Shown: piece after piece, positions 1 through 27,583 of the stretch
Layout: the number at the start of each line of letters is the position of its first letter
How positions within the stretch are numbered: the stretch's first letter is position 1
IMG/VR virus record: IMGVR_UViG_3300046009_006707
Span: 1 to 27,583 of that record
Direction: 5' to 3' (one strand)
DNA: 27,583 nt
DNA from: a virus
Program-made: the position numbers and the translations under genes
The notes under the pieces: model-generated
What the model was told of the DNA's origin: nothing
Seen by the model: only the letters and a program-made list of their open reading frames with translations
The model's database searches: none

Positions 1-145
1 TTGTCTTATTATACTTTGAAGGTACAATACGAATTTGTTGCTTACCAATGGTAGGCTTCCAAAATGCTTCTTTACGATCACCACCACCTTTAGTAGCAGT
101 TTTTTGCATTGCGCCTAAGCGCGATCTGATTTCGTTTAGATCCAT
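1..145 (-). CDS. T4 gp32-like single-stranded DNA-binding protein, N-terminal fragment
   Basis: The ATG is at 145-143 and the reading frame stays open to the window edge, giving 48 visible residues starting MDLNEIRSRLGAMQ. The basic N-terminal segment (IRSRLGAM), a Gly-rich/basic linker (TKGGGDRKEAFWKP) and then GKQQIRIVPSKYN match the start of gp32-type ssDNA-binding proteins of T4-like phages. There the N-terminus mediates cooperative binding and the 'R-hydrophobic-P' strand opens the OB-fold core. The expected role is coating ssDNA during replication and recombination. It is the last gene of the visible strand run, 58 nt downstream of the 152-aa gene and next to a DNA polymerase, which fits a replication function. 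The OB fold, zinc site and acidic tail lie outside the window, so the call rests on a short stretch. Confidence 0.7.
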   Translation of the reverse strand, partial: MDLNEIRSRLGAMQKTATKGGGDRKEAFWKPTIGKQQIRIVPSKYNKT

Positions 146-203
146 AACTATAATTTATTATTGTTTATAACTAATTTAACATCAAAACCTATTAAAGCCA
201 AGC

Positions 204-1899: not shown

Positions 1900-1930
1900 G
1901 GTTGTAATATAACATCTATGATTTTAAAAA

Positions 1931-11628: not shown

Positions 11629-11940
11629 TTAATAAGATTTAGTGTGATTAAGAGCTTGAAACTCTTTTTTAGTTTTCTCTTCAAGTTTATCTACTCTACT
11701 ATCAATATGACGATAGAGATTTTCTAACTCTCGTTGAGTATTATTATTTAATTGATCTGTGTAAGTTATACAATTATGTTCTCTTGTATCAAGATCACGA
11801 ATAGTTGTTTCATCAATACTTTGAAGAATATTGATTTGTTTGTGGAGGTTTTTAATTTCCATAAAATTCATAAACGTAACCACAACCATTAGCATAGTAA
11901 TGACTGCAGCTACACCTAAAATAAATGATGTAATTTCCAT
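11629..11940 (-). CDS. Small membrane-anchored coiled-coil protein
   Basis: 103 residues. Residues 4-27 (TSFILGVAAVITMLMVVVTF and on) form one strong transmembrane helix at the N-terminus. The rest is charged and heptad-like (NLHKQINILQ; ENLYRHIDSRVDKLEEKTKK), consistent with a coiled coil projecting from the membrane. I do not recognise a named family. The shape recalls i-spanin-like or membrane-adaptor proteins, but there is no partner gene or lysis cassette nearby to support that. It is out of place between the tube and chaperone genes. It follows a strong terminator, so it needs its own promoter, and near-perfect 21/22-nt inverted repeats enclose it. This suggests an inserted cassette. 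The start is the first ATG in the frame. Confidence 0.7.
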   Translation of the reverse strand: MEITSFILGVAAVITMLMVVVTFMNFMEIKNLHKQINILQSIDETTIRDLDTREHNCITYTDQLNNNTQRELENLYRHIDSRVDKLEEKTKKEFQALNHTKSY

Positions 11941-12050: not shown

Positions 12051-12539
12051 TTAGAAGTTTAGTACACAGTAATCCATAGCTACTTCAACAGTAAGGTTTT
12101 GAGCAGCTGATTCATTATCCCAGTTGTATTCACCAAAGTTTGAGTTAACAATAAATGCACCTTTGATTACCCATTCTGAAACGATATCACCTACAGGACC
12201 TAAAATGTCAATAGTTAAATCTTTCTTATAGAAATCAGAATAACCATCTCTACCTGTTACAGATTCATGATGTAAACGTACCCACTCCATAACGGCTTGA
12301 GCACCAGAAGGAGTAATTGGGTCAAATAATGTCATTGTAACATTACCCCATTTTGATTTACCTTTTACTTTTCTGTAAACGTTAATATGGTTAAGAACAA
12401 TTTCATCTTGCGTTAGAGTAACAGCTGAGATTGCTTTAATTGTATAAGATGGAATACCATCTACATACATGATAAATCTATTCTGTTGTTTTGGTTCAAA
12501 CGCTGTGAAAAAAATTTCGTTTGGATCTAATACTGCCAT
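12051..12539 (-). CDS. Tail tube protein (gp19-like)
   Basis: 162 residues starting MAVLDPNEIFFTAFEPKQQN. The segments NRFIMYVDGIPSYTIKAIS, KWGNVTMTLFDPITPSGAQA, KKDLTIDILGPVGDIVSEW, GAFIVNSNFGEYNW and LTVEVAMDYC follow the T4 gp19-like tube family order. The length matches gp19-type subunits (about 160 aa). The subunits stack as hexameric rings to make the inner tube through which DNA passes. It lies 45 nt after the sheath gene and directly before a strong terminator, and a copy of the late box stands 16 nt before its ATG, so it can probably be expressed at high level independently of the sheath. No Shine-Dalgarno is visible; the leader ends AGCAAAATG. Confidence 0.93.
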   Translation of the reverse strand: MAVLDPNEIFFTAFEPKQQNRFIMYVDGIPSYTIKAISAVTLTQDEIVLNHINVYRKVKGKSKWGNVTMTLFDPITPSGAQAVMEWVRLHHESVTGRDGYSDFYKKDLTIDILGPVGDIVSEWVIKGAFIVNSNFGEYNWDNESAAQNLTVEVAMDYCVLNF

Positions 12540-12584: not shown

Positions 12585-14306
12585 TTACGCTGGGAAAGTT
12601 GCTCCAGTTGGTAAGATGTTGAAGTCTAGGTAAATGAATTCAGCAGTCTTAGTTGGTTGGATGTAGATCTGACCTACTAACTGGTTTCTATCAATTACAT
12701 CAGCAGTATTGTTAGAATCGTCCATAATTACTTTGAACGCATACAGACCTTGACGTTGTTGTACTGATTCAAGATATGGATTAACTTGGCTTAAGAATTG
12801 ATTTCTTGTAGCGATTGTGTTTTGTTCAAACACTAAGTTATTAGCTACTTGAGAAATGTATGACTTAAGTGCAATTAACAATCTTCTTACATTTACTCTA
12901 TCAAGAGCAGATGATTGTTTTTGTAGAGTTTTCTGACCATATACTACAGTACCAGTTCCTGGGAAGGTAGCAATTGGGTTTACATTACCTGAATACAAGG
13001 TATCGCGGCTTGATTGAGGAAGTTTTTGTTCAGCTCTAATTACATTAGATAAACCACCTCTGTTAATACCAGCAGGTGCGAACCAAGGCTCACTTACACT
13101 GTCGTTGAAGGCGTAAACACCACCAATCATTGTAGAAGCAGGTACCCATACTCTCTGACCTGAATCTGGGTCAACTGTTTGAACCCACGGCCAGTAAGTT
13201 GCAGCGTAAGAAGTGTTTCTAGTTGCGGCTGCTGACACAGCATTACCTACAGTTGAGTTGTATGGATTTTGGTCTACAACATAGATGCTATCACCTCTAT
13301 TTTGAGTATTTGAGATAATTGAAGCTACTGTAGTAGCAAAAGCACCAGAATCAATTAAACCAGGAGTTAGGATTACATTGAATCTGTAGTCGTCTTGGTT
13401 AGCTAATAAATTAACCATGTTAGTGTAGTTAGCTGATACTAAACCTTGAGTATTAGTTACACCGGCTACAATTTCATTATAGTATTTGTTACCTGAAGTA
13501 AGTTCCATGTTGCCAGAAGCGCTACTAAATGAACCACTAGCTACAATTGGAATTGAGCTTGTAAAAGCATTTTTAGCTACACCATTATTATCAAAGTAGA
13601 ATGGAGTTGCATTATTTACTGATTTAACTCTTACATATCTAGATTGATTAGTGTATGAACCTGATACTGTTACTTGGTTAAGAGTTGAGTTGTAGTTTTC
13701 AACAGAATCACCAATCACAGCAGCTACGAAGTTTGCAGCAGTTGGGTCTAATGATAGGTTAGTCCAAGTTTCAAGTACAATTGGATTTTCAGTATTATCA
13801 TTACCTTGTCTAATTAATAGATCAAATGTACCTGAAGAAGTATTTGGGTTAACAATCTGCCATCTAATATTATCAACTGAACCACTGATCAGGGCACCAC
13901 TTGTATCTAGGGCACCTGAGCTGTTCATTATAGCACCCTTAGAAAGAGTTTCAAGAACAAAAGCAGGTTGAGATGAAGCTTGTGTACTTGAACTAATGGC
14001 TGTACTAACAGCAGGAGTGTAAGATCCACTAACAACTCTAGCTACTAATAAACTTTGACCACCATTATTAAAGTAGTTGTAAGCAGCAATAGAAGTAAAG
14101 TAAGTGTAAACACCACTGCCACTTAGGAAAGTTGTTCCAAAAGTGCTTTGATATTGAGAATAAGAAGTAATAATAGTTGGGACTTCAACAGGACCTTTAA
14201 TTGTAGGTCCGATAATAGCTGCACCAACTGTTATTGGTTGAGATGTAACTTGAGATTGATCGTTCTCTCTCGCTAATACTCCTGGTGAAATTAAAGTTTC
14301 TGCCAT
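12585..14306 (-). CDS. Contractile tail sheath protein
   Basis: 573 residues. The N-terminus AETLISPGVLARENDQSQ is the typical sheath start (SPGV near residue 7 followed by an acidic/Ser segment). It continues with GAAIIGPTIKGPVEVPTII and a Gly/Tyr-rich NYFNNGGQSLLVARVVSG segment. The C-terminal ~120 residues (VNVRRLLIALKSYISQVANN, an FEQN segment, then IDRNQLVGQIYIQPTKTAEF) match the conserved sheath C-terminal domain that contacts the tube and the neighbouring sheath arms. The middle is Ser/Asn-rich and variable, as in T4 gp18. It defines the phage as a myovirus. It is followed by the tube gene and preceded by the modification cassette. The leader carries a perfect copy of the late box 17 nt before the ATG. 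Confidence 0.93.
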   Translation of the reverse strand: MAETLISPGVLARENDQSQVTSQPITVGAAIIGPTIKGPVEVPTIITSYSQYQSTFGTTFLSGSGVYTYFTSIAAYNYFNNGGQSLLVARVVSGSYTPAVSTAISSSTQASSQPAFVLETLSKGAIMNSSGALDTSGALISGSVDNIRWQIVNPNTSSGTFDLLIRQGNDNTENPIVLETWTNLSLDPTAANFVAAVIGDSVENYNSTLNQVTVSGSYTNQSRYVRVKSVNNATPFYFDNNGVAKNAFTSSIPIVASGSFSSASGNMELTSGNKYYNEIVAGVTNTQGLVSANYTNMVNLLANQDDYRFNVILTPGLIDSGAFATTVASIISNTQNRGDSIYVVDQNPYNSTVGNAVSAAATRNTSYAATYWPWVQTVDPDSGQRVWVPASTMIGGVYAFNDSVSEPWFAPAGINRGGLSNVIRAEQKLPQSSRDTLYSGNVNPIATFPGTGTVVYGQKTLQKQSSALDRVNVRRLLIALKSYISQVANNLVFEQNTIATRNQFLSQVNPYLESVQQRQGLYAFKVIMDDSNNTADVIDRNQLVGQIYIQPTKTAEFIYLDFNILPTGATFPA

Positions 14307-14400: not shown

Positions 14401-15600
14401 TTAATAAATATTAAGTACTTTTTGTAGAGATTTTATCACCATTTCAGGTGTAATAGACTTTGTACATTCAAAATGTCTTGGAGTGTTTTTATGTTCTGGA
14501 CACCATTCCCAATCTCCTGGGTTGAGCCATTCATGATTAAAACATCCTGAACAAAATCCTGACGGAGTATAAATACGTTCACAATCTTCAAACTCACTGT
14601 ATGGTTCTGAGAAGCCTGAGATTAGGATTGTTTTTTGTCCTACAGCCCAAGATACCCAACTTAAACCACTACCTACACCAATAAATGCATCAGCGTGTAC
14701 TATGTCACTCATCCTGCCTTCTAGTGGAAGTTTACCTGTTTTATTAACAACATTTTTGAGTGTACCTCCTAGTTTAGAGTCATGCCATGCATCTCCTAAA
14801 GGTTCACTAGTTAACATAAGTGTTTTATAACCATTATCTTTTAACCAGTCTATAACACGCTGCCAACCACCTGGATAGTTCCAATACTTAGCATGAGCTG
14901 AAGCATGGGGTGCTATTACAACATACTTGTCTTTTATAGGTTTTGGTTTTTTATTAAAGAATACTTTAGGTTTAGTTTCAATGTACTCTAGACCTAAAAT
15001 ATCTGATGAAGTTTTACCTAGAGGTATATTTTTAAATTCAGTAACATTTTTATTTAGGTTTACTTTATGGTCTTCATCATAAAACCAACCTACATTGTAC
15101 ATAGCATATATGTCACTTACTTGAGTACCTGGTTTTACAAATTTAATTTCTGGATATGTTTTGATAAACCAGTTATTATGGAAGGTAGAAGTTATAACTT
15201 CACAGTTATGTTTTTTTCTAAATTCATCTATAAAGGGGAACCAAGCTAAAGTATCACCTACTGCTGTTGAATCCATATGAATGTAAATTCTTTTTCCAGT
15301 AGCATCATATCTATGTTCAAAAACTAATTCATTAGTTGCTAGGTCAAAGACTTGTATTAACCATTCTGTAAAATATTGACGGTTAGATTTAGTCCACATA
15401 TTATTTGAAATAATAGACTCATGAACTACCTCATTTGTTCTTTGATCTGTAAATACAGCCTTATATTGACGCTCTTCAGGACCTAAAATTTCTAAGAAAG
15501 CACCTTCAACAAAATGAAAGGTAAATCTATTTTCAGGTTCTCTAGAAGGTAAGTGAAGTGGTTTCACATTATCATATATTTTCTTTAAAACTTCTTTCAT
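14401..15600 (-). CDS. TibC/Aah-like protein O-heptosyltransferase (GT9-like)
   Basis: 399 residues matching the autotransporter 'strand-loop-strand' O-heptosyltransferase family from end to end. It has an N-terminal beta region (1-100), then IHMDSTAVGDTLAWFPFIDE with D116 at the catalytic-Asp position, the STFHNNWFIKTYPEIKF strand-turn, DILGLEYIE, YVVIAPHASAHAKYWNYPGG, and IGVGSGLSWVSWAVGQKTIL in the donor-binding half. The C-terminus carries C350, C353, C367 and C379 in SGFCSGCFNHEW...WCPEHK...FECT, the four-Cys metal (iron) site described in TibC. Family members move heptose from ADP-heptose to Ser on autotransporter passengers. Here the likely acceptor is a phage protein; the Ser-rich fibre encoded just upstream is the obvious candidate (inference). 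The sugar donor used is unknown. Its 5' end overlaps the GT4 gene by 29 nt. Confidence 0.82.
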   Translation of the reverse strand: MKEVLKKIYDNVKPLHLPSREPENRFTFHFVEGAFLEILGPEERQYKAVFTDQRTNEVVHESIISNNMWTKSNRQYFTEWLIQVFDLATNELVFEHRYDATGKRIYIHMDSTAVGDTLAWFPFIDEFRKKHNCEVITSTFHNNWFIKTYPEIKFVKPGTQVSDIYAMYNVGWFYDEDHKVNLNKNVTEFKNIPLGKTSSDILGLEYIETKPKVFFNKKPKPIKDKYVVIAPHASAHAKYWNYPGGWQRVIDWLKDNGYKTLMLTSEPLGDAWHDSKLGGTLKNVVNKTGKLPLEGRMSDIVHADAFIGVGSGLSWVSWAVGQKTILISGFSEPYSEFEDCERIYTPSGFCSGCFNHEWLNPGDWEWCPEHKNTPRHFECTKSITPEMVIKSLQKVLNIY

Positions 15601-16531
15601 ATAACTTTATTAATTCAGTTGTTCTATTATACCAATCTAATTCTTTAGCTGTCTCTAATGCTTTAGATTTATAAAATTCAAAATTATTTATTATATCTTG
15701 CAAACCAATATTCATTTCAAATATGTCACGAGGTGCTCTCCAAGCACCATGAAACACAGTGTTATGTTCCCAATCTGCAATTGTAGGTAAACCAGCAGCT
15801 GCAGCTTCAATCATTGTTAGATTTGGATGGCCCGCTTCCAACATTGTAGGATGAATAAAGATATCATGTTGATGATATAATTTTAATAACTCACTATTAG
15901 GAGTGTCGTAGACAATTTTTAGTTTAGGATAAGTTAATGTCCAAGGATTTTCACTAAAGAAATGTCTATTATTATAAGGACCAGCTACTGTAATTTCTAA
16001 ATTATTTAAAGCAGCCAACCCAATACCAAAACTAAATCCTTTCCTATCAAAGCCTGGATCACCTGCTAATCCATTATTAGCTACCATTAATAGTTTAGGT
16101 TTTATAGGTGTTGGTTTTTCTATAGGGTAAAATTCATAATTGTTAACTCCATGAGCAAAATATTGTACTTTAGGATGATTAAAATAATCTACTAAATATC
16201 TTGCTGGGACTAATGAGATAATAGATTCTTCTATTGCTTTAAGGTTTTGTTTGTAAACATGACTATCTTTCCCGTAGTGGTAAGCATGGTGATCATGAAG
16301 TTGAAATACATAAGGTATTCCTCTTTCTTGAAGCATTAAAGCTAAATTACCAACATGACAATGAACAATATCAAAGTCATCAGGGTTAATCTCAGTTGCA
16401 AACTTGATTTCTGACTCATGTCCTTGTTTTAAAAAATTTTGATGAAACTCCCATACGATTTTTTCAATCGCACCCCAATCTTTAGGTGGAACATCTATCC
16501 CACATGCAGGATGTACTTGACAAATCTTCAT
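15572..16531 (-). CDS. GT4-type glycosyltransferase (GT-B fold)
   Basis: 319 residues. The N-terminus MKICQVHPACGIDVPPKDWG AIEKIVWEF is a GT4 acceptor-side start. DFDIVHCHVGN and YVFQLHDHHAY are Rossmann-fold edge strands. The C-terminal half has LLMVANNG, ITVAGPYNN and HDIFIHPTMLEAGHPNLTMI followed by EAAAAGLP, the donor-sugar motif of retaining GT4 enzymes (E232 and E242 are the likely acidic pair). Its donor and acceptor cannot be read from sequence. It overlaps the FkbM-type gene by 4 nt (ATGA) and the heptosyltransferase-like gene by 29 nt, so the three are probably translated together and work on the same glycan. It is cytosolic, with no membrane segment. Confidence 0.85.
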   Translation of the reverse strand: MKICQVHPACGIDVPPKDWGAIEKIVWEFHQNFLKQGHESEIKFATEINPDDFDIVHCHVGNLALMLQERGIPYVFQLHDHHAYHYGKDSHVYKQNLKAIEESIISLVPARYLVDYFNHPKVQYFAHGVNNYEFYPIEKPTPIKPKLLMVANNGLAGDPGFDRKGFSFGIGLAALNNLEITVAGPYNNRHFFSENPWTLTYPKLKIVYDTPNSELLKLYHQHDIFIHPTMLEAGHPNLTMIEAAAAGLPTIADWEHNTVFHGAWRAPRDIFEMNIGLQDIINNFEFYKSKALETAKELDWYNRTTELIKLYERSFKENI

Positions 16532-17118
16532 AGGTTTTTTTTGGCGTATATCATCCCTAGATTAGTATTTTTATGGATGTGTTCAAAATTTATATTATAT
16601 CCGTTTTGACTAAATTTTTCTAATATTTGAAGTATTTGATATCCATTATTATAAATGTCATGTACCTCTATAGCATATTGTTTAACTTTAGTTAAGGTAT
16701 CAATAGGCATGTTCAATAACAAGGGATATTCCCAAAACTCAATATCAACTTTAGCAAAGTCTACTTTGTCTAAATTAAACATACTGAGTATGGTTTGGAA
16801 ATTAAAATGTTCAAATTCAAACCTGTCACTAATATATCCTTTAATTAAGGAAGTATTTGAGTAGTCAGTTAGATTTAATTTTAAAAGTTCAAACACCGGT
16901 GAATCACATTCAAAAGAATAAACATGTTGCGCCCCTTTATCTAAAGCGAACCTACTAAAAACACCTACATTAGCCCCACAGTCTAAAACTATATCACCTT
17001 CTTTTATATCAAGACCATATCTTGTATATTCTTGATCCTCCCAAATTTCTTTTTTTAAACCAAGTATCCAGTTTGGATCTTGATCTTCAAAGTAATAAAA
17101 ATCATCAACTAAAATCAT
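16528..17118 (-). CDS. FkbM-family SAM-dependent methyltransferase
   Basis: 196 residues, short for the family. Motif I is IVLDCGANVGVFSRFALDKG (residues 43-62), followed by the acidic strand end YSFECDSP. The later strand VDFAKVDIEFWEYPLL stands where most FkbM enzymes have a 'LKIDVEGxE' motif, so the Gly is replaced by Phe/Trp while the Asp and Glu remain. C-terminal strands YAIEVHDIYN and LGMIYAKK complete the fold. FkbM-type enzymes commonly O-methylate sugars or polyketide hydroxyls. Inside a glycosyltransferase operon (4-nt overlaps on both sides) the likely substrate is a sugar of the glycan built by its neighbours. Sugar specificity is unknown. Confidence 0.8.
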   Translation of the reverse strand: MILVDDFYYFEDQDPNWILGLKKEIWEDQEYTRYGLDIKEGDIVLDCGANVGVFSRFALDKGAQHVYSFECDSPVFELLKLNLTDYSNTSLIKGYISDRFEFEHFNFQTILSMFNLDKVDFAKVDIEFWEYPLLLNMPIDTLTKVKQYAIEVHDIYNNGYQILQILEKFSQNGYNINFEHIHKNTNLGMIYAKKNL

Positions 17119-19757
17119 TCCGCAGCGTATATTAAGGGGCTATTTTCATCTGTTCCTTTAAATTCTTGTTCTACAATAGAGAACCCAGGAAGATGTTTAG
17201 TATAAATTTTTTCAGCTGTTCCTACTCTTAATTTAGCTACATTGCAAATCCATAAATCAAAAGCGTCCCAAGGTGTTGAATTTACTAAATCTACTATTCT
17301 TTCTATTTTATTCTGATTGATTAAATAGGATTGAGCAGGGACAAATGGTGTTACATCAGTATAAATGTCCTCTATTTTAGGTCCATTTAAGTTTCTGTTT
17401 TGCCATGGATTACCAAAACCAATAATATCCATGTCTGTTTCTTTAGCTAGTCGGTTGAAGCGCTGAAGTGCATCGTATAATTCCGTGTAATCACTGTCTA
17501 TAATAACGTCACCCTCAAATATTAGTACATAGTCGTACTCCTTATTGTCCGCGGTTAAAATGGCGTTTTTATGAGCTAGGTAACATCCATAATGGCCTGG
17601 AGCTAGCTTATAGTAACCTGGTTTGTCTTGTACTTCAGTTGGTCTAGCACAGTTTTCTGATGGTGGAGTTTCTTTCCAGATTACATTTACTCGTTGTTCA
17701 TATATAATACCTGTCTTCTCACAGAAATCTTTTATATTCTCTATTGAGCGAATCTCTTTAGGATTGTTTTCAGGGTCAGTTACTAGATGCATTAACTTAA
17801 TTTTATTAATGTTTGCTAGTTCTAAGTAACCATTACCCTCTAAGTTGTTTGTAGGTAGTGTTTTTACCTCTATAAGTTTTTGACTAACCAAATCATAAAT
17901 TTCAAATTTGATTTTTAGACCTGGGGTGTTAGGGATAAGTTTATACCAATCTAATTTACTAGTTACCTCTATAGAATCTATAAGTTCTGTAGTATTATCT
18001 TGAATAGTGTAAACTTTAATTATTTTAGTTTCTTTACTATTAGATATTCTAATATAAGGAGCAATAGTGTCAACCTTATTAGTTGGTAATACTGTATAAT
18101 ATTCTACTCTAGAATAATCAGCGTGGTAGAATGTTTCTTCTATTTTAGAGTTAAAGACATCTTCATCTTCATAATAGATGTTGTTTGAGTTTTTGAAGGC
18201 ATGGTACCATAAATTCTCTAAACCATTTGATTCACTACCCCATAGTTGTTGTAACTTATCATATTCTAAAGCATTATCTATTTGTGGGATAGTCTTTAAA
18301 AATTCTTTAGTACGAACACCCATAAAGAAGGTATAGATAGTATCTCCTTCAGCTGCTTTATATTTACCTACAAAAGCTTCTTTAAACATTAAGTAGACAG
18401 AGGCTTGATCTATGTAATCATTATCTTTTAAGATATAGTCATAGTTAAGTAAATAAGCTACCTCATACCCTAGATTATCAGCTAAGGCTACACCATTACG
18501 ATAGTTTGTATAGACTGTAGGACCATGATAAACATCATTATCATTACCTCTTAGATTAACATGTACTTTATATTCTGGGTACTGAGCCCAGAAGTTACTA
18601 TAGTAGGTGTGTTTAGTTAAGATATTATTTTTATCTACAACTGTATAATCAACTAGTGTTGTTAATTCTTCGGGGATAGGGATATGAGAAGTTAACATTA
18701 CTGTTTTACCCTCATGTTTTAAAGCTTCAACACACTGTTTAGTAGTTTGAATAATTGAGTCGTTTATAGGATAAGTAGAGACTATAAAAATTTCTTTATT
18801 AGAGGGGTCATTAAGGTGAGCTCTAATTAAATTACAGTTAGCTTTAAAGTCATTAAAGTCTAAATAGTCTATATTATCAAACTGGTTCCAATAATTTAGA
18901 TAAACTGGGAGATTATAGATTAGAGTAGGTAATAACCATGATGTGGCCTCTCTAATTACTAAAGGCATTGTTTCTTTATCTGTATTTGTACCTCTAGAGG
19001 TAAACAAAAACAAATCCATTGCTTTATAAAAATTGTCTACATCATTTCTCTCACCCCAAACATGAACATTTGATGGTTTACTTTCCATCAGGGGTTGCCA
19101 GTAATGTTGAAAATTACCAGCTTGATTACCTACACAATGGAATTCATATTCAGGTAATGCTTTAGCATACTCAAAGAATTCAGCTTGGTTTTTACGGGGA
19201 GTAAATAACCCAACATGTAGAATATGTTTTTTATTTGGATCTAATCCTAACTCTTGTAATGCCTCTTTTCTATTAGGACGTTCTTTATATTCAATAGGAT
19301 AATAAACTATATCTTTAGGGATAAAGTTATTATATTGTTTGTTATGCCATTCTGATATGAAGGCGTAATGGTCTGGGAAGAATTGTTTTTGGTCAGGGGT
19401 AAATGAGCTGTCATGTGAAGTTTCTACTATAGCATATTCTCTATCTTGGCTGTAAAGTTGTTTAGCTATATAAGAGTCCATAAAGAATTCAGGGAATTCT
19501 TCTAAATGGATAACATCAGGAGATATATCTTTGATTATGTCAAAGATTTTAGATTTATTTTCTCCTAACTCATAAAATTTATCTCCTAAAAGTTCAATAA
19601 GTTGATCTCGTTGTACAACAAAAAGACCTCCACTATGATTGGACCATTCAATCAAGTGAATATCATACTCATTTATGAGTAATTGAATCTTTTTAAGAAG
19701 ATATTGAGGTAAACCCCCTGTAGATAGGTGAGGGGTTATGTATAATAACCTTTTCAT
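17115..19757 (-). CDS. Multidomain glycosyltransferase: GT4 + middle domain + GT25
   Basis: 880 residues, apparently three units. Residues 1-~330 are a GT4 domain: ITPHLSTGGLPQYLLKKI at the N-terminus, KKHILHVGLFTPRKNQAEFF, and DKETMPLVIREATSWLLPTL as the donor-site helix. Residues ~335-640 form a second region starting IFIVSTYPINDSIIQTTKQC with LLNYDYILKDNDYIDQAS, possibly a GT-A-like or GT-associated domain that I cannot assign. Residues ~655-880 form a GT25-like domain: KLMHLVTD, GHYGCYLAHKNAI (721 on) and YVLIFEGDVII with the acidic EGD at 748-750. GT25 includes LPS galactosyltransferases and collagen Lys-glycosyltransferases. The fusion suggests at least two sequential sugar additions by one polypeptide. 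It starts 9 nt after the 85-aa gene and overlaps the FkbM-type gene by 4 nt. Confidence 0.8.
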   Translation of the reverse strand: MKRLLYITPHLSTGGLPQYLLKKIQLLINEYDIHLIEWSNHSGGLFVVQRDQLIELLGDKFYELGENKSKIFDIIKDISPDVIHLEEFPEFFMDSYIAKQLYSQDREYAIVETSHDSSFTPDQKQFFPDHYAFISEWHNKQYNNFIPKDIVYYPIEYKERPNRKEALQELGLDPNKKHILHVGLFTPRKNQAEFFEYAKALPEYEFHCVGNQAGNFQHYWQPLMESKPSNVHVWGERNDVDNFYKAMDLFLFTSRGTNTDKETMPLVIREATSWLLPTLIYNLPVYLNYWNQFDNIDYLDFNDFKANCNLIRAHLNDPSNKEIFIVSTYPINDSIIQTTKQCVEALKHEGKTVMLTSHIPIPEELTTLVDYTVVDKNNILTKHTYYSNFWAQYPEYKVHVNLRGNDNDVYHGPTVYTNYRNGVALADNLGYEVAYLLNYDYILKDNDYIDQASVYLMFKEAFVGKYKAAEGDTIYTFFMGVRTKEFLKTIPQIDNALEYDKLQQLWGSESNGLENLWYHAFKNSNNIYYEDEDVFNSKIEETFYHADYSRVEYYTVLPTNKVDTIAPYIRISNSKETKIIKVYTIQDNTTELIDSIEVTSKLDWYKLIPNTPGLKIKFEIYDLVSQKLIEVKTLPTNNLEGNGYLELANINKIKLMHLVTDPENNPKEIRSIENIKDFCEKTGIIYEQRVNVIWKETPPSENCARPTEVQDKPGYYKLAPGHYGCYLAHKNAILTADNKEYDYVLIFEGDVIIDSDYTELYDALQRFNRLAKETDMDIIGFGNPWQNRNLNGPKIEDIYTDVTPFVPAQSYLINQNKIERIVDLVNSTPWDAFDLWICNVAKLRVGTAEKIYTKHLPGFSIVEQEFKGTDENSPLIYAAE

Positions 19758-19766
19758 CTAAATAAT

Positions 19767-20024
19767 TTATTGCTGGGTAATAGTAATCTCTCCAGTTTCT
19801 AAATTAATTTGGCCTGAGCCGTATTTGTCTGTTAATTCTTTACCAAGTGTTGTTTCTTCAACTAACAATTCACCGTAAAATTCTCTAGCTTTATTTTCTC
19901 TTTCTTCAAGATTAAGTTTAGCTAAATTAACTTGACCTAATTCAGTTACTAAAACTTCTCGCTTTTGTTGTAGGTCATTAATTTTTTGAATTTCCTCGTC
20001 TGTTAATTTTTTTACTTCAGTCAT
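19767..20024 (-). CDS. Small coiled-coil protein
   Basis: 85 residues starting MTEVKKLTDEEIQKINDLQQ. About the first 65 residues form a continuous charged helix with heptad spacing (LQQKREVLVTELGQVNLAKL; ERENKAREFYGELL), and it ends with a small hairpin-like motif KYGSGQINLETGEITI. I know similar short 'coiled coil plus KYGxGxIdxxTGE' proteins from phage tail/fibre regions but no function. It lies 9 nt before the glycosyltransferase fusion and 62 nt after the 124-aa gene, whose leader region is extremely A/T-rich. It may be a small scaffold or chaperone; that is a guess. Confidence 0.7.
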   Translation of the reverse strand: MTEVKKLTDEEIQKINDLQQKREVLVTELGQVNLAKLNLEERENKAREFYGELLVEETTLGKELTDKYGSGQINLETGEITITQQ

Positions 20025-20086
20025 GTTGCAACTTATTTTTAATAGATTATTTTATAATATAATTACTTTATTTTATAACTCCAAGT

Positions 20087-20461
20087 TTACATTTCAATAG
20101 TCCAAGAAGAAGATGGTAAACCAAATAATGGAGTTTGTGTTTCTTGAATATATGCTAAAGATGTTTCTATAACATTATCATAGGAACTTGTAGTTAAAAA
20201 AGATGATTTTTGAGTATCATAAAAATCACTCCAAACATTAGCATCTAAAATTAAACTAATTGAGCCTATGGATTGTTTAGTTGATAAGTCATAATCAGCC
20301 CAAATAATACTATAAATACCTACAGTATGAGTATTTTCAGGAGATGGACTAGTCTGTGCATCTAGAAAAGTAGTGCTTTGAGCAGTTATAGTTACTATTG
20401 AAGAAGCTTGGGTTTGGGCATCATATATAACAGCTTGGTTTGATACAAGTTTATGAGACAT
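20087..20461 (-). CDS. Hypothetical protein downstream of the fibre gene
   Basis: 124 residues starting MSHKLVSNQAVIYDAQTQAS. The composition is rich in Ser, Thr, Ile and aromatic residues with alternating hydrophobic strands (SSIVTITAQSTTF; VGIYSIIWADYDL; GSISLILDANVW), so a beta-sandwich is likely. There is no signal, membrane or catalytic motif. I do not recognise a family. Its position between the fibre gene and the modification cassette suggests a virion or fibre accessory protein. The late box ends only 7 nt before the ATG, closer than elsewhere, because the box is embedded in the end of the preceding 53-aa gene. Confidence 0.65.
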   Translation of the reverse strand: MSHKLVSNQAVIYDAQTQASSIVTITAQSTTFLDAQTSPSPENTHTVGIYSIIWADYDLSTKQSIGSISLILDANVWSDFYDTQKSSFLTTSSYDNVIETSLAYIQETQTPLFGLPSSSWTIEM

Positions 20462-20463
20462 AA

Positions 20464-20625
20464 TTATTTTTTATTATAAATATTAAATTGCTCTTTAACT
20501 TGTTTTGAAGTTAAGACTTCTCCTTCAGACATTATTTGTTGAAATTCTTCTAAAGTAACTTCATAGATAGTACCTCCTTTAGCTAATATTCGTTTTTCTA
20601 GTTCTGGGGTTAAAGGGGTCATCAT
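20464..20625 (-). CDS. 53-aa hypothetical protein overlapping the fibre stop codon
   Basis: A small open frame of 53 residues starting MMTPLTPELEKRILAKGGTI, followed by a helical, acidic/basic stretch (YEVTLEEFQQIMSEGEVLTS) and a C-terminus QFNIYNKK. The ATGATGA at 20625 overlaps the fibre stop codon by 4 nt, and it ends 2 nt before the next ATG. It fills the gap exactly, as a real coupled gene would. The 'TPELEKRILAKGG' opening looks like an ordinary soluble helix. I do not know the family. It could be a small fibre chaperone by position, but nothing in the sequence proves that. Confidence 0.6.
   Translation of the reverse strand: MMTPLTPELEKRILAKGGTIYEVTLEEFQQIMSEGEVLTSKQVKEQFNIYNKK
20469..20483 (-). 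promoter_or_regulatory. Late-box copy inside the end of the 53-aa gene
   Basis: The minus strand reads ATATTTATAATAAAA exactly, 7 nt before the ATG at 20461. Here it also encodes the residues N-I-Y-N-K of the preceding 53-aa gene. The exact 15-nt match to the sheath and tube copies suggests the regulatory constraint has shaped the end of that coding sequence. Confidence 0.45.
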
Positions 20626-23600
20626 GCTTGAATATACATTGGTACCACATATCTAACATTGTTAAGTCTAATTGCTAACCATTTATCAGGTTCTGCAAGA
20701 TAAACTCTTGGGTCTGTTCCGTAATAAGCAGTTATAGAACTTGGGTCTCCAGCGTTTTCCGTAGGAGTACTACCAGTATGGAATAATTCTAGACCTGTAT
20801 AGTTGATATTACCTAAAGCTAAGTAGTTAGAAGAGCTAACAAATAAAGCGTTACGGTTAGTACTACCAGTATCATTTAAACGGAATGAGAATGCGGCATC
20901 ATTAGGTCCACGTAATGCTATTGAGCCTGAGAATACTACTAATTTATGGTTTAGTAGAGAAGGGGAAGCACCTAAACCTATACCTATTTGACCTGAGCTA
21001 GAAACAAATAACAAGTTATTTGCTGTAGTACTGTCAATTTGGAGTGCTATTTGCTCAGCGCTGTTTATATGGAATGAACCTGTTGGGTTTACTTTAGTGA
21101 TACCTACTCTAGATCCAGTTATAGCTAAGGTTGAACCACCCGTACCACCATTTGTATTAAATAAGAATCTTTGAGTTGCTGCTTCTACTCTATAAACAAA
21201 ATCTCTAGCGGCTGCATCTGTTGAGAAGGCACCAGCAGTAGTTGGAAATGCTGGAGAATATCCTCTTGTGGTACCTGATTCTAGGATAGTAAAAACAAAG
21301 TTGTTACTACCATTTAATGCTATACCATCTACTGCTCCGGCAGTTTCAACTGTAAGTTTACTAGTAGGGTTATTAGTACCTACACCAAAATTACCGCCTG
21401 CAGCTACACGGGCTCTTTCAGTACCAGTAGTTAAGAATATTATAGGGGCAGCTTCATTAGTTAGGAATCTAAAATCACCTGTACCTCTAGTTTCAATTGT
21501 AGATGTTGTATTAGCACCTCCATTACCTCTAATTATTCTAAGACCATAGTCAGGATAAGTAGTATCACCAACTAAATCAATATAAGCGAATCCATTTCCT
21601 GTTCTACCTTGACCTATTTCTAAAGAATATTCACCAGCTGAACCATGACCTAAATCTAAACTTCCTTCAAATCTACCATCACCAACAACATGAAGTGTAT
21701 CAACTGGGTTAGTAGTTACAATACCTACTCTACCACTACCAGTTACAAATAAGATATTAGAGTTAGCTGGTGATCCTACTCTAAATAATGGGAAGTTACT
21801 AGCACCTGAAACGTGTAATAACGCTGTAGGACCTGCTGAGGCAGTTGTAAATACACCAGGACCTATACCAATTTCAGTATTTGGTATATCATAATAAATT
21901 AAGTTAGTACTCTGGATTGTATTAGAAGAAGAAGCATATACTCCTGTGAATGGATAGAATGCAAATAAGTTACCACTAATACCTGCTGAGGCTGCTAAAC
22001 CAGATGAACCTGAAGTACCTGATGAACCGCTTGAGGCTGATGAACCACTACGACCTGAAGTTCCTGATGAACCAGATGACCCAGATGAGGCACTAGAACC
22101 ACTTCTACCTGATGTTCCTGATGAACCTGAACTACCTGAAGAAGCTGCTGAGCCTGATGAACCACTTCGACCAGACAAACCAGATGTACCTGTAGCACCT
22201 GATGAACCAGATGAACCACTTGTTCCTGATAATCCTGAGGTGCCTGAAATACCTGATGTTCCTGATAGACCTGAAGAACCACTTGTTCCAGAAATACCTG
22301 AAGAGCCACTTGTTCCTGATAGACCTGAAGAACCACTTGTTCCTGATAATCCTGAGGTGCCTGATAGACCTGAAGAACCACTTGTTCCAGAAATACCTGA
22401 AGAACCACTAACTCCTGAAGTACCACTAGCACCCGATGAGCCTGATGAACCCGAGGTTCCTGAAGAACCACCTGAAGTTCCTGAAGTGCCACTAGCACCT
22501 GAAGATCCTGAAGATCCAGATGAACCACTCCGACCTGAAGTACCTGAAGCACCTGAGGAACCTGAAGAAGCACCAGTTGTTCCTGAAGTGCCACTAACAC
22601 CTGATGAACCACTTGAACCAGATGAAGCTGAAGAACCACTACGACCTGAAGTACCACTTGCTCCTGAAGAACCAGATGAAGCCCCAGTTGTACCTGATGT
22701 ACCGCTAGCACCCGAAGAACCTGAAGAGCCAGATGAACCACTTCTACCTGAAGTACCTGAAGCACCTGAGGAACCTGATGAAGCTCCTGATGTACCTGAG
22801 GTACCACTTACACCAGAAGTACCTGAAGCGCCTGATGAACCTGTTGAGCCTGAAGACGCGGATGAACCACTTCTACCTGATAAACCAGATGAACCTGTAG
22901 TTCCACTTATACCAGATGAACCTGATGTACCGCTAATTCCTGATGAGCCGTTTGTACCTGAAGCGCCACTTGAACCTGATGAAGCTGATCTACCAGCTAC
23001 TCCATCAATACCAGTCGTACCAGATGAACCACTTGTACCTGATGTTCCTGATAAAGCTGAAGAACCATTTGCACCTGATGTACCACTAATTCCTGAAGAA
23101 CCATTTGTACCTGTAGCTCCACTTGAACCTGATGAGGCTGAAGAACCACTCCGACCTGATAAACCGTTTGTACCAGATGAGCCAGATGAAGCAGATGAAG
23201 CACTTGAACCACTACGACCTGATAAACCATTTGTGCCTGATGAACCAGATGAACCTGAAGAAGCTGATGTTCCTGAGGCGCCTGAAGTGCCACTTACACC
23301 TGATGAACCGCTAGTACCGCTTATACCTGATGAACCTGATGTTCCTGATAAACCACTTGATCCTGAAGTTCCACTTGAAGCCGAAGTGCCTGAAGCACCT
23401 GAAGTACCACTTACACCTGATGAACCAGTTGATCCAGATGAACCACTAGAAGCTGATCTTCCAGCTACACCATCTATACCTGTTGTTCCTGAAGAACCAC
23501 TAGTACCAGAAGTAGCTGATAAGGCTGATGAACCACTTATGCCATTTGAGCCAGATGTACCAGATGAACCTGAAGAGGCTGAAGAACTGCTCCGGCCTGA

Positions 23601-26600
23601 AGTGCCTGATGAACCTGAAGAGCCTGAACTACCTGAGGATGCTGATGAAGCTGAAGATCCACTTCTACCTGATGTTCCTGTTGTACCTGACGAACCTGAA
23701 GAACCAGATGTACCAGATGAAGCACCACTTGTTCCTGAAGTACCACTTTGACCTGAAGAACCAGATGTACCTGAGGATGCCGAAGAACCACTTGTTCCAG
23801 AAGAACCTGATGAAGCACTAGAGGCACTTGAACCGCTTCTACCTGATGTTCCCGAAGCACCTGATGAACCCGATGAACCAGAAGAAGCTGAAGTTCCGCT
23901 AGCACCTGAAGCACCTGATGTACCAGATGAACCTGAAGAAGCAGAAGTGCCACTAGCACCTGATGTTCCTGAATTACCTGATGTTCCTGATGAACCTGAT
24001 GAGGCTGAAGAGCCTGAACTACCTGAGGAAGCTGATTTACCACTTATCCCGTCTATACCAGTTGTACCTGATGAACCTGAAGTTCCTGAGGTAGCAGAAA
24101 GGCCAGATGTACCACTTAAACCATTTGAACCTGAAGTACCAGTTGAACCTGATGAACCACTTGAAGCAGATGATCCACTCCGACCTGAAGTACCAGTTGA
24201 ACCTGATGAAGCAGATGAGCCACTTGAACCTGAGAAAGCTGAAGTACCAGACGAACCTGAAGAACCTGAGGTGCTAGAAATACCTGATACACCAGATACA
24301 CCTGATGTACCTGATGAACCTGTAGAACCTGAACTTCCTGAACTAGCAGATGAACTACTTCTACCAGAAGATCCGGAAGAACCTGAAGAAGCACTTGATG
24401 CAGATGAACCACTTCTACCTGATGAACCTGATGAACCTGAGGTACCAGAAGATGCACCTGAAGATCCGGATGAACCACTTATACCTGATGAACCTGAACT
24501 ACCACTTGAACCTGATGAACCACTTGATCCAGATGAAGCTGAAGTACCACTAGTACCTGATGTTCCTGAATTACCTGATGAACCTGATGAAGCTGAAGAG
24601 CCTGAACTACCTGAGGAAGCTGATCTACCAGCAACACCATCTATACCAGTAGTACCAGATGAACCTGAAGTACCAGATGTAGCTGATAAGGCTGAAGAGC
24701 CACTTATACCATTTGAACCTGAGGTTCCAGTTGAACCAGATGAGGCTGATGAACCACTCTGACCTGATAAACCATTAGAGCCTGAAGAACCAGATGAGGC
24801 TGAAGAAGCACTTGATCCACTCCGACCTGATATACCTGATGAACCAGTCGTACCCGCTGAACCTGAAGATGCTGATGTACCTGAAGCTCCAGAAGTACCA
24901 CTTACACCTGAAGTTCCTGAAGAAGCTGAGGAACCGCTTGTTCCACTAACGCCTGAGGTTCCTGAATTTCCTGATGAACCACTTGTTCCTGATGAACCTG
25001 AAGTAGCTGAGGATGCGCTTGTTCCTGAGGCGCCTGATGAACCACTTGAACCTGATGAACCGCTTGAAGCAGATCTACCTGCTACCCCGTCAATACCAGT
25101 TGTACCTGAACTACCTGAAGTACCTGAAGTTGCTGATAGGGCTGAAGAACCGCTTATACCATTTGAACCAGATGTGCCTGATGAACCTGAAGAAGCAGAT
25201 GAACTACTTAAACCTGATAAACCATTTGAACCTGAAGAACCACTAGAGGCTGAAGAAGCAGATGAACCACTTCTACCTGAAGTACCTGATGAGCCCGTAG
25301 AACCAGATGAACCAGATGAGGCTGAAGTTCCTGAAGCACCTGAAGTACCACTTACACCAGATGAACCGGATGAAGCTGAAGAAGCTGAGGAGCCGCTCCG
25401 ACCTGAAGTACCTGAGGCGCCTGATGAGCCTGAAGAACCTGAAGAAGCTGAGGTTCCTGAAGCACCAGAAGTACCTGAAGCGCCAGATGATCCGGCTGAA
25501 CCAGATGAGCCACTTGAAGCTGATCTTCCAGATACTCCATCTATACCTGTTGTACCTGATGAAGCTGATGTGCCTGAGGTACCACTAGCACCTGATGAAC
25601 CTGATGAGGCTGAAGAACCACTTTGGCCGGATGAACCATTTGATCCTGATGAACCTGAAGAAGCTGAAGAGGCACTTGAACCACTTCTGCCTGATGTACC
25701 TGATGAACCGGTTGAGCCTGATGAACCCGCGGAGCCACTAGTTCCACTTACACCTGAAGCACCTGATGCTCCTGATATACCTGATGAGCCTGAGCTACCT
25801 GATGATGCTGAAGTACCACTTGAAGCAGATGATCCACTTTGACCTGATAGACCATTTGAACCAGAAGAACCACTAGAGGCTGAGGATGAACTTGAACCAC
25901 TTCTGCCTGATGTTCCTGAAGAACCTGATGAGGCTGAAGAACCTGATGAAGCTGATCTACCTGCTACCCCATCTATACCTGTAGTACCTGATGAACCACT
26001 AGTACCAGAGGTTGCACTTGAAGCTGATGAACCACTTAGTCCTGAAAGACCGGATGAACCAGTTGAACCAGATGAAGCTGAAGAGCCGCTCTGACCTGAT
26101 AGACCGTTTGAGCCTGAAGAACCTGATGAGGCGCTTGAGGCAGATGAACCACTTCGACCTGATAAACCTGATGAACCACTTGAGCCAGATGAAGCAGATG
26201 AACCTGAAGTTCCTGATGAACCACTAGACGCGGAGGCACCTGCAACCCCGTCTATACCAGTTGTACCAGATGAACCTGATGTGGCTGAAGTACCTGATGA
26301 GCCTGAAGTAGCTGAACTACCAGATGAAGCGCTTGAACCACTTTGACCTGAAAGACCATTTGAGCCAGATGAACCTGATGAAGCACTTGATGCTGATGAG
26401 CCACTTCTGCCTGATAAACCATTTGTACCAGATGAACCTGATGAACCTGAAGAACTACTTTGACCTGAAAGACCATTTGAGCCTGATGAACCTGCTGAAC
26501 CTGATGAGGCGCTTGAACCACTTTTACCAGCTACACCATCTATACCAGTAGTACCTGATGATCCACTTGTTGCTGAAGTACCTGATGAGCCAGATGTACC

Positions 26601-27583
26601 ACTTGAAGCTGATGAACTGCTTAAACCAGATGTACCTGATGAACCTGAAGATGCTGATGTCCCACTTGAACCAGATGAAGCACTCGAAGCAGATGATCCA
26701 CTACGACCTGAAGTACCAGATGAGCCTGTAGAACCAGAGGTACCAGATGAGGCTGATGTGCCGGATGCTCCTGAAGATCCTGTAGAACCACTTGAACCTG
26801 ATGATGCTGATCTTCCTGCTATACCATCAATACCAGTTGTACCACTTGAACCTGAAGTACCTGATGTGCCTGAAGATCCTGATGAAGCACTTGAAGCAGA
26901 AGATCCACTCCGACCTGATGAACCTGAAGTTCCACTTGAAGCTGAGGATGCTGATGAGCCTGATGTACCAGAAGAACCAGATGATGCACTTGAAGCACTT
27001 GAGCCACTTCTACCTGAGGTACCTGATGAGCCTGATGAGGCTGATGAACCTGAACTACCTGAAGTACCTGATGAACCAGATGAAGCTGAAGCACCTGCTA
27101 CGCCATCTATACCTGTTGTACCTGATGAACCACTTGTTGCTGAAGTACCAGATGAACCACTAGTAGCTGAAGATGCTGATGAACCACTCTGCCCTGCTGA
27201 ACCTGATGAGCCTGAAGAGGCTGATGTTCCACTTGAACCTGATGAAGCGCTTGAAGCAGATGAACCACTACGACCTGATGTTCCTGATGAACCTGAGCTA
27301 CCTGAAGAAGCTGATGAAGCTGAAGTACCTGAAGCTCCTGATGATCCTGTAGAACCACTAGAAGCAGAAGAACCTGCTCTACCACTTACTCCATCAATAC
27401 CTGTTGTACCACTTGAACCACTTGTTCCACTTGTACCTGAAGAACCTGATGTAGCATTTGAAGCTGAGGAACCACTTTGGCCTGATAAACCTGATGAACC
27501 AGATGATCCTGAACTACCACTTGTACCAGAAGAAGCACTAGAGGCACTTGAACCACTTCTACCAGATAAACCTGAGGAACCAG
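20622..27583 (-). CDS. Giant collagen-like (Gly-X-Ser) phage fibre protein, 5' end outside window
   Basis: The frame is open from the window edge to the TGA at 20624-20622: 2,319 visible residues, still without an N-terminus. Residues from the edge to about plus-position 21970 (~1,870 aa) are Gly-X-Y triplets with Y almost always Ser and X Ser, Thr, Leu, Ile, Arg, Lys or Gln (GSS, GTS, GLS, GRS). Proline is almost absent. Ala often replaces Gly (ASS triplets). The C-terminal ~450 residues are a non-repetitive fibre domain with several 'VGIxxxNPTxxLHV'-like units (GRVGIVTTNPVDTLHV; FGVGTNNPTSKLTV; RVGITKVNPTGSFHI), ending DKWLAIRLNNVRYVVPMYIQ. No S74 chaperone domain is seen. The likely role is a long, flexible tail fibre or whisker for host attachment. 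An internal TTG at 22178 is not a credible start because the same repeat continues upstream without a break. Confidence 0.88.
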   Translation of the reverse strand, partial: GSSGLSGRSGSSASSASSGTSGSSGSSGSSGLSGQSGSSASNATSGSSGTSGTSGSSGTTGIDGVSGRAGSSASSGSTGSSGASGTSASSASSGSSGSSGTSGRSGSSASSASSGSSGTSASSGSSGSAGQSGSSASSATSGSSGTSATSGSSGTTGIDGVAGASASSGSSGTSGSSGSSASSGSSGTSGRSGSSASSASSGSSGTSGSSASSASSGTSGSSGRSGSSASSASSGSSGTSGTSGSSGTTGIDGIAGRSASSGSSGSTGSSGASGTSASSGTSGSTGSSGTSGRSGSSASSASSGSSGTSASSGSSGTSGLSSSSASSGTSGSSGTSATSGSSGTTGIDGVAGKSGSSASSGSAGSSGSNGLSGQSSSSGSSGSSGTNGLSGRSGSSASSASSGSSGSNGLSGQSGSSASSGSSATSGSSGTSATSGSSGTTGIDGVAGASASSGSSGTSGSSASSGSSGSSGLSGRSGSSASSASSGSSGSNGLSGQSGSSASSGSTGSSGLSGLSGSSASSATSGTSGSSGTTGIDGVAGRSASSGSSASSGSSGTSGRSGSSSSSASSGSSGSNGLSGQSGSSASSGTSASSGSSGSSGISGASGASGVSGTSGSAGSSGSTGSSGTSGRSGSSASSASSGSSGSNGSSGQSGSSASSGSSGASGTSGTSASSGTTGIDGVSGRSASSGSSGSAGSSGASGTSGASGTSASSGSSGSSGASGTSGRSGSSASSASSGSSGVSGTSGASGTSASSGSSGSTGSSGTSGRSGSSASSASSGSSGSNGLSGLSSSSASSGSSGTSGSNGISGSSALSATSGTSGSSGTTGIDGVAGRSASSGSSGSSGSSGASGTSASSATSGSSGTSGSSGNSGTSGVSGTSGSSASSGTSGVSGTSGASGTSASSGSAGTTGSSGISGRSGSSASSASSGSSGSNGLSGQSGSSASSGSTGTSGSNGISGSSALSATSGTSGSSGTTGIDGVAGRSASSGSSGSSASSGSSGNSGTSGTSGTSASSGSSGSSGSSGSSGSSGISGSSGSSGASSGTSGSSGSSGRSGSSASSASSGSSGSSGRSSSSASSGSSGSTGSSGTSGVSGVSGISSTSGSSGSSGTSAFSGSSGSSASSGSTGTSGRSGSSASSGSSGSTGTSGSNGLSGTSGLSATSGTSGSSGTTGIDGISGKSASSGSSGSSASSGSSGTSGNSGTSGASGTSASSGSSGTSGASGASGTSASSGSSGSSGASGTSGRSGSSASSASSGSSGTSGSSASSGTSGSSGQSGTSGTSGASSGTSGSSGSSGTTGTSGRSGSSASSASSGSSGSSGSSGTSGRSSSSASSGSSGTSGSNGISGSSALSATSGTSGSSGTTGIDGVAGRSASSGSSGSTGSSGVSGTSGASGTSASSGTSGSSGLSGTSGSSGISGTSGSSGVSGTSGASGTSASSGSSGSSGTNGLSGRSGSSASSASSGSSGTNGLSGRSGSSASSGSSGATGTNGSSGISGTSGANGSSALSGTSGTSGSSGTTGIDGVAGRSASSGSSGASGTNGSSGISGTSGSSGISGTTGSSGLSGRSGSSASSGSTGSSGASGTSGVSGTSGTSGASSGSSGASGTSGRSGSSGSSGSSGASGTSGTTGASSGSSGASGTSGRSGSSASSGSSGSSGVSGTSGTTGASSGSSGASGTSGRSGSSGSSGSSGASGTSGTSGGSSGTSGSSGSSGASGTSGVSGSSGISGTSGSSGLSGTSGLSGTSGSSGLSGTSGSSGISGTSGSSGLSGTSGISGTSGLSGTSGSSGSSGATGTSGLSGRSGSSGSAASSGSSGSSGTSGRSGSSASSGSSGSSGTSGRSGSSASSGSSGTSGSSGLAASAGISGNLFAFYPFTGVYASSSNTIQSTNLIYYDIPNTEIGIGPGVFTTASAGPTALLHVSGASNFPLFRVGSPANSNILFVTGSGRVGIVTTNPVDTLHVVGDGRFEGSLDLGHGSAGEYSLEIGQGRTGNGFAYIDLVGDTTYPDYGLRIIRGNGGANTTSTIETRGTGDFRFLTNEAAPIIFLTTGTERARVAAGGNFGVGTNNPTSKLTVETAGAVDGIALNGSNNFVFTILESGTTRGYSPAFPTTAGAFSTDAAARDFVYRVEAATQRFLFNTNGGTGGSTLAITGSRVGITKVNPTGSFHINSAEQIALQIDSTTANNLLFVSSSGQIGIGLGASPSLLNHKLVVFSGSIALRGPNDAAFSFRLNDTGSTNRNALFVSSSNYLALGNINYTGLELFHTGSTPTENAGDPSSITAYYGTDPRVYLAEPDKWLAIRLNNVRYVVPMYIQA
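22261..22407 (-). repeat. Near-identical 48-nt direct repeat, 99-nt offset
   Basis: Positions 22261-22308 and 22360-22407 agree at 47 of 48 bases. The 99-nt offset is 33 residues, or 11 triplets. An overlapping second pair (starting at 22214 and 22331, 117-nt offset) is also nearly identical. Unlike most of the array, codons here are conserved, which suggests recent duplication. The encoded motif is GTS-GSS-GIS-GTS-GSS-GLS. Confidence 0.75.
22989..27413 (-). repeat. Twelve GIDG modules within the collagen-like region
   Basis: The motif GTTGIDGVAGRS or a close variant occurs twelve times. The Asp codons are at plus positions 23004, 23472, 24051, 24639, 25089, 25539, 25971, 26250, 26538, 26826, 27105 and 27393. 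Spacings are 468, 579, 588, 450, 450, 432, 279, 288, 288, 279 and 288 nt. The five most upstream-of-gene modules are thus regular 93- or 96-residue units (31 or 32 triplets). These motifs contain nearly the only Asp residues of the array. Confidence 0.85.

Follow-up and report, generated by a model that had tools for sequence, protein, structure and literature searches.

A TibC-led enzyme cassette that probably glycosylates the serine-rich collagen-like fibre of a T4-like phage

Phage glycosyltransferases (GTs) are usually read as anti-restriction tools or as modifiers of the host surface. Here we describe a viral locus in which such enzymes probably act on the virion itself. The window (i.e. 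the whole stretch of 27,583 bases, which is IMG/VR virus record IMGVR_UViG_3300046009_006707) contains a T4-like tail module. On its minus strand a serine-rich collagen-like fibre gene is followed by two small proteins, a cassette of four enzymes (a GT4-GT25 protein, an FkbM methyltransferase, a GT4 protein and a GT9 protein), the tail sheath, the tail tube and further tail and baseplate genes (Table 1). The cassette genes overlap successively by 4, 4 and 29 bases. The fibre and the cassette that follows it had been described in an initial annotation made from the sequence of the window by itself; its coordinates and gene order were correct, and the tight overlap of the cassette was confirmed. 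From family assignments, structural models and the distribution of the genes among phages, we consider it highly probable that the phage glycosylates its own collagen-like fibre by means of this cassette, led by the GT9 protein, which is of the TibC type.

A cellular parallel is found in Bacillus anthracis, whose collagen-like spore protein BclA is glycosylated. As we propose for the fibre of the window, BclA is a collagen-like rod, exposed on the surface and carrying O-glycans, but it is cellular, rich in Thr and Pro and served by different enzymes; we know of no TibC-type enzyme for BclA. Among viruses, mimivirus encodes collagen-like proteins together with enzymes that modify collagen, including the collagen glucosyltransferase R699 (PMC9546862), and to that extent resembles the window. 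In mimivirus, however, glucose is linked to hydroxylysine and the host is an amoeba, whereas in the tailed phage the anchor is likely to be serine and the enzyme is TibC-like. In mycobacteriophages, phage-encoded glycosyltransferases place glycans on virion proteins, as in our reading of the window, but the acceptors there are the C-termini of capsid and tail-tube proteins (Freeman et al. 2023, as cited in PMC12619734), whereas here the likely acceptor is a long collagen-like rod and the enzyme belongs to another family. The marine T4-like pelagimyophages also carry GT genes beside collagen-repeat tail fibres; in the available text of that study (PMC7029224) these are read as modifying the host O-chain, and fibre glycosylation is not proposed.

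The enzymes closest to the GT9 protein are TibC and Aah (PDB 4rap and 4rb4; TIGR04414). They share with it the β-barrel, the GT9 core, the iron-finger, the catalytic and donor-site residues and proximity to a long repetitive Ser-rich protein. TibC acts on serines, and not on threonines, of repetitive surface proteins (PMC4358343). The partner of TibC and Aah is an autotransporter β-helix, whereas the putative partner in the window is a phage collagen-like fibre, and unlike them the window enzyme has further GTs and a methyltransferase alongside. We considered an autotransporter glycosylation system (BAHT with an SLS-repeat autotransporter) and rejected it, since the genes around the enzyme encode a phage fibre of collagen-like type and tail proteins. 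Taken singly, the glycosylation of phage virions, heptosylation of the TibC type and the viral modification of collagen are already known (PMC12619734; PMC4358343; PMC9546862). Our literature search returned no description of their combination in phages, nor of an enzyme set matched to collagen composition.

The TibC/Aah assignment made in the initial annotation proved right for family, fold and active site. The GT9 protein scores 302.1 bits against TIGR04414 (hepto_Aah_TibC), for which the curated equivalog cut-off is 200, and 35 bits or less against models of lipopolysaccharide (LPS) heptosyltransferases. Its residues 14-389 align with TibC (4rap) at an E-value of 1.5e-52. In an AlphaFold model (pLDDT 90.4) the N-terminal β-barrel and the GT9 core span the full length of the protein; residues 23-399 of the model match TibC (4rap) with a Z-score of 38.7 and a root mean square deviation of 2.7 Å over 363 residues, compared with Z-scores of 18.6 or less for the E. 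coli LPS heptosyltransferases. Identification as an LPS core heptosyltransferase was therefore rejected. The iron-finger of TibC comprises Cys339, Cys342, Cys358 and Cys370, and its catalytic base and donor site involve Asp110, Lys230, Arg286, Trp305 and Thr226 (PMC4358343). In the GT9 protein the iron-finger cysteines (Cys350, Cys353, Cys367 and Cys379) are invariant among 37 relatives, as are Asp116, Lys238 and Trp315, while Arg296 is nearly so; these last four are the counterparts of the TibC residues in the alignment with 4rap. Thr226 of the TibC donor site is replaced by Ser234. By family, predicted fold and conserved active site the GT9 protein is thus a full-length TibC-type protein O-heptosyltransferase. 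A search of PHROGs gave no match for this enzyme or for the 880-aa enzyme of the cassette. As a separate observation, two TibC-type genes lie side by side in the records of L340 (G046), L343 (G049), L397 (G103) and L286/L287 (G121/G122), and in each of these pairs one copy matches only from about position 80 of the model, with little or no β-barrel.

The collagen-like part of the fibre contains 1,881 residues, of which 27% are Gly, 46% Ser, 9% Thr and 0.1% Pro. The earlier description of at least 1,870 collagen-like residues, nearly free of Pro, thus held; Ser and Thr together make up 55%, not the two-thirds given there. The repeat had been described as Gly-X-Ser. It is not strict: many Gly positions are occupied by Ala or Ser (e.g. 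GSSASSASSG), the register shifts, and Gly-first triplets amount to 53% in the best single register. Both TCN and AGY codons are used for serine and the DNA repeats are just 60-80% alike, so the pattern appears to be kept at the level of the amino acids. The C-terminal piece of the fibre scores 26.1 bits with Pfam Collagen (PF01391; cut-off 27.2), and the fibre of a cassette-bearing relative (L038) is above the cut-off. In L003, where the sheath is 90% identical, the fibre is complete at 1,279 aa and has a short non-repetitive head at its start. A tblastn search with the fibre against cultured phages found no match.

Relatives were sampled by scanning with the sheath, which gave 80 loci, and with TibC enzymes, which gave many more; the loci were dereplicated, and those counted had at least 3 kb upstream. 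The initial annotation had suggested a survey of co-occurrence, and the outcome is favourable. A Gly-X-Y fibre was present on the contig in 32 of the 36 loci with the cassette, and in none of the 19 relatives without it (Fisher 3e-11, shared ancestry being ignored). L038, one of the four misses, was rejected as a counter-example because a Ser-rich fibre (Ser 33%, Thr 20%) lies further along its contig, beyond the stretch first examined; this gives 33 of 36, the remaining misses being L162, L163 and L168. Relatives lacking the cassette carry other proteins at the position of the fibre and cassette. On the sheath tree the state of the cassette changes about 10 times, at least six of them on well-supported branches.

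A further set of viral contigs was chosen independently of the enzyme, by a DNA pattern for Gly-Ser-Ser-Gly-Thr-Ser repeats, a TibC being scored when above the equivalog cut-off. TibC was present in 31 of these 79 contigs, and in 12 of the 13 that were at least 100 kb long; note that IMG/VR contigs are mostly fragments. By comparison, 50 control contigs drawn by an unrelated 14-base pattern contained no TibC (Fisher 2e-8, again ignoring ancestry), three of these being longer than 100 kb. No TibC above the cut-off was found in the large contigs with Ser-poor collagen (L077, L253, L260, L269/L270, L273 and L311). In the combined dereplicated set the fibre contains at least 18% Ser in 40 of 48 collagen loci with TibC and in 0 of 24 without, although these composition classes were gathered via TibC, the oxygenase discussed below or the sheath, share ancestry and leave loci with neither enzyme outside the set, so that p-values are indicative only. 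Pseudo-collagen arising from antisense reading of Gly-Ser repeats (GPCGPC) was removed by retaining the longest open frame.

The cassette accompanies the fibre and not the sheath. Its neighbour in L138, L142, L146, L151, L153 and L204 is a Ser-rich fibre, which reaches about 2,700 aa at most, and the stretch examined contains no sheath. Reading L138, L153 and L204 gene by gene shows the cassette flanked on one side by the major capsid gene, which was identified by eye, and on the other by a Ser-rich fibre encoded on the opposite strand. In the 735-kb megaphage LR756501 a GT4-TibC fusion of 738 aa and a large GT4 enzyme of 1,140 aa adjoin a Gly-Ser/Thr fibre that is likewise encoded on the opposite strand; this genome has several further such fibres in which Ser and Thr together mostly make up 45-61%. 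The cultured Microcystis phage Mel-JY01 (PP395634) seemed free of the cassette when inspected near its sheath, but this was rejected when a search of the whole record found TibC and a Ser-rich fibre elsewhere. Its GT4-TibC fusion (1,227 aa, annotated as an FkbM methyltransferase) is separated from a Ser-rich collagen-like frame by about 2.5 kb, and from the sheath by about 24 kb. A literature search returned no paper naming Mel-JY01. We also note that the Ser-rich frame of Mel-JY01 (2-3052 on the plus strand of L240:1-8430) is annotated as hypothetical proteins on the antisense strand and apparently runs off the start of the record. On an Arenicellales contig from a metagenome-assembled genome (L217:3596-5178), a 112-aa lipoprotein-like gene with TSG repeats lies directly ahead of a TibC-type gene, and this arrangement is a possible cellular analogue.

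A further pattern, absent from the initial annotation, concerns Pro-rich collagen. Some relatives have the same cassette but a Ser-poor collagen rich in Pro and Gln (e.g. GPQGPQGYQG). These have gained, between fibre and cassette, a GT2-methyltransferase, a DUF6445 protein and a 2-oxoglutarate-Fe(II) (2OG-Fe(II)) oxygenase of the prolyl-hydroxylase-like family PF13640, which retains the His-X-Asp...His...Arg pattern. L077, which has Ser-poor collagen, carries the same oxygenase gene pair without TibC, and GT2 enzymes and a sulfotransferase are present. In the combined set the fibre has at least 1.5% Pro in 34 of 36 collagen loci with the oxygenase and in 1 of 36 without. A whole-record PF13640 search missed oxygenases found by direct scan, so that absence in that mode is uninformative. 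L330 has both fibre types and both enzymes on one contig. The most economical interpretation is that every type of fibre reaches a hydroxyl acceptor by a route of its own. In hundreds of related viruses the enzymes present appear to match the composition of the fibre. We lean slightly towards a two-branch system in large tailed phages, in which TibC would O-glycosylate Ser-rich, Pro-free fibres while oxygenases would hydroxylate Pro-rich ones prior to glycosylation or, in one lineage, perhaps sulfation, so that the enzyme set follows fibre chemistry. If true, this gives a role to one subfamily of phage 2OG-Fe(II) oxygenases. In many phage contigs (L133:3809-5046; L244:9636-10818; L252-L328) a collagen-like fibre that is poor in Ser and contains Pro has a PF13640 oxygenase at a distance of 10 kb or less, paired with DUF6445 in several lineages; these oxygenases are likely to be a family of collagen hydroxylases. 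In the phage of L077 the sulfotransferase gene (L244:11722-12543) has the Ser-poor collagen fibre on one side and the two oxygenase genes on the other, and sulfation of the fibre or of its glycan is possible.

The remaining cassette enzymes are identified with differing certainty. The FkbM protein scores 52.3 bits with TIGR01444 (curated cut-off 37.7). The initial annotation had described the 880-aa enzyme as GT4-GT25. The GT4 part stands: Glycos_transf_1 is above the Pfam cut-off, the modelled GT-B fold matches with a Z-score of about 20 over 295 residues, and the domain is found in 28 of 28 relatives. The GT25 part is weak, with a Pfam score of 21.3 bits against a cut-off of 24, a match in 6 of 28 relatives, and the GT25-like end being absent or located elsewhere in some. 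We nonetheless regard this sequence match as more than chance, because dozens of independent contigs show the same arrangement. Foldseek places human COLGALT1 among the best matches (E-value about 1e-9), but the TM-scores are 0.17-0.29 and a second fold search was dominated by the GT4 domain; the resemblance of the model to COLGALT1 is a lead only. For the 319-aa enzyme, the matches to GT4-type models all fall short of the respective cut-offs. In some capsid-side cassettes there is a carbamoyltransferase gene of the NodU/CmcH type, lying between GT4 and TibC in L138 (L138:8392-10020) and with similar genes in L147, L153 and L204, which suggests carbamoylated sugars.

We infer the acceptor (the fibre serines), the sugars and the order of transfer from the enzyme families and their linkage. 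The TibC-type enzyme would act in the host cytoplasm, while virions are being assembled or earlier, and attach heptose, or a related sugar activated by ADP, to the many serines of the fibre. The GT4 and GT4-GT25 enzymes would lengthen this first sugar, and FkbM would cap it or methylate a sugar hydroxyl. The product would be a bottle-brush-like glycosylated rod on the virion. The glycan may stiffen a proline-free rod or protect it from proteases, or it may serve in shielding or adhesion. That the cassette decorates the fibre had been proposed in the initial annotation, and the proposal gains support from the survey: cassette and Ser-rich fibre occur together in several tail lineages, and also in the megaphage LR756501 and the cultured Mel-JY01.

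Several observations weigh against glycosylation of the fibre. The combinations named in the initial annotation as contrary to it, a cassette without a Ser-rich fibre or the reverse, do occur in some records. TibC is found with no detected collagen-like fibre in L162 (40 kb), L168 (53 kb) and the 636-kb phage LR756504, while TibC-bearing L163 (256 kb) has just a collagen-like stretch of about 80 aa. Conversely, L332 (148 kb) is Ser-rich without TibC, as are most of the smaller Ser-rich contigs, possibly as they are fragments. When the sheath tree is reduced to well-supported independent pairs, the two traits are concordant in three or four of four according to the pairing and never opposite, but with p = 0.125 these are too few for significance. 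On the donor side, heptose adenylyltransferase-like matches are weak and were found in 5 of 20 records of large TibC-bearing phages. Thr-rich fibres need a specificity other than that of TibC, because TibC modifies Ser and not Thr (PMC4358343). Lastly, the dodecameric ring of TibC requires a β-hairpin thumb, but the secondary structure of the AlphaFold model (DSSP) shows no evident hairpin where it would be expected, and the oligomer may therefore differ from that of TibC. The link between cassette and fibre is strong, but not absolute.

These exceptions bear on the alternatives. The cassette might remodel host surface glycans (O-antigen, capsule or other) against superinfection, and lie near the fibre because this is a variable host-recognition region. 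The glycosyltransferases in the host-recognition cluster of pelagimyophages are read that way in the available text of PMC7029224, enzymes of the GT4, GT25 and FkbM types also act on cell-surface glycans, and the three phages with TibC and no detected collagen fibre keep this explanation alive. It is weakened by the identity of TibC, since the constant member of the cassette is a protein glycosyltransferase and not an LPS enzyme, and by the dependence on fibre composition: the cassette tracks Ser-richness and not just the position of a fibre, collagen loci without TibC are Ser-poor, and TibC is strongly over-represented in the Ser-rich contigs drawn by the DNA pattern. Remodelling of the host surface is consequently unlikely in our view.

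It could also be argued that the TibC-led cassette glycosylates another virion protein (the sheath, the capsid or another tail protein), with which the Ser-rich fibre is merely correlated. The cassette does adjoin the sheath in the window and the major capsid gene in phages like L138, and mycobacteriophages are known to have glycosylated capsid and tail-tube proteins (Freeman et al. 2023, as cited in PMC12619734). Yet the linkage of the cassette to the sheath is not constant, nor is that to the capsid, whereas the Ser-rich fibre is nearly always linked to it, and the sheath is well conserved whether or not the cassette is present; another virion protein as the substrate is very improbable. We give equally little credence to passive linkage, i.e. 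co-inheritance of fibre and cassette in a modular tail locus with no relation of enzyme to substrate. Most of the tests are uncorrected for shared ancestry and the tree-based test, with four well-supported pairs, is underpowered, but the pairing recurs in the megaphage, in Mel-JY01, in the capsid-side lineage and in the sample drawn by the Gly-Ser pattern, and the type of enzyme fits what the fibre is made of, TibC going with Ser and the 2OG oxygenase with Pro.

The evidence thus points to the virion's own fibre as the substrate, across widespread aquatic, T4-like and giant phages. If this is true, TibC-type protein heptosylation, known from bacterial adhesins, extends to viruses and to collagen-like rods. 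The natural contrast between Ser-rich fibres with TibC and Pro-rich fibres with a hydroxylase bears on how collagen-like proteins without hydroxyproline stay stable. Because Mel-JY01 is in culture and has both fibre and enzyme, virus-made collagen glycosylation is directly testable.

Table 1. Features of the window, in positions of the 27,583-base stretch.
Feature	Position	Strand	Remarks
Serine-rich collagen-like fibre	20622..27581	-	2,319 aa in view, 5′ end beyond the contig; PHROG tail fibre matches on the C-terminal piece
Fibre, collagen-like part	21939-27581	-	
Fibre, globular C-terminal part	about 20622-21938	-	
Small conserved protein	20087..20461	-	124 aa; between fibre and cassette; similar 133-aa protein ahead of the cassette in L089
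Small charged protein, probably coiled-coil	19767..20024	-	85 aa
880-aa glycosyltransferase	17115..19757	-	GT4 (GT-B) domain 1-320, conserved middle domain about 321-640, GT25-like about 655-860; from Pfam, alignments, AlphaFold and fold searches
FkbM-family S-adenosylmethionine methyltransferase, likely sugar O-methylation	16528..17118	-	TIGR01444; Pfam Methyltransf_21
GT4-type glycosyltransferase	15572..16531	-	319 aa; accompanies the TibC gene in nearly all cassettes
TibC/Aah-type protein O-heptosyltransferase, GT9	14401..15600	-	399 aa; N-terminal β-barrel and four-cysteine iron-finger; TIGR04414
Tail sheath protein	12585..14306	-	Follows the cassette; marker of the T4-like tail module; query for sampling relatives
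Tail tube, gp19-like	12051..12539	-	
Protein with Rz-like spanin profile match	11629-11940		103 aa; between the tail tube and baseplate hub genes

Among cultured phages, Flavobacterium phage immuto has the closest sheath (53% identity), which makes a host within the Bacteroidota probable. Relatives of the 85-aa protein lie directly upstream of the sheath in most related phages, whether the cassette is present or not.

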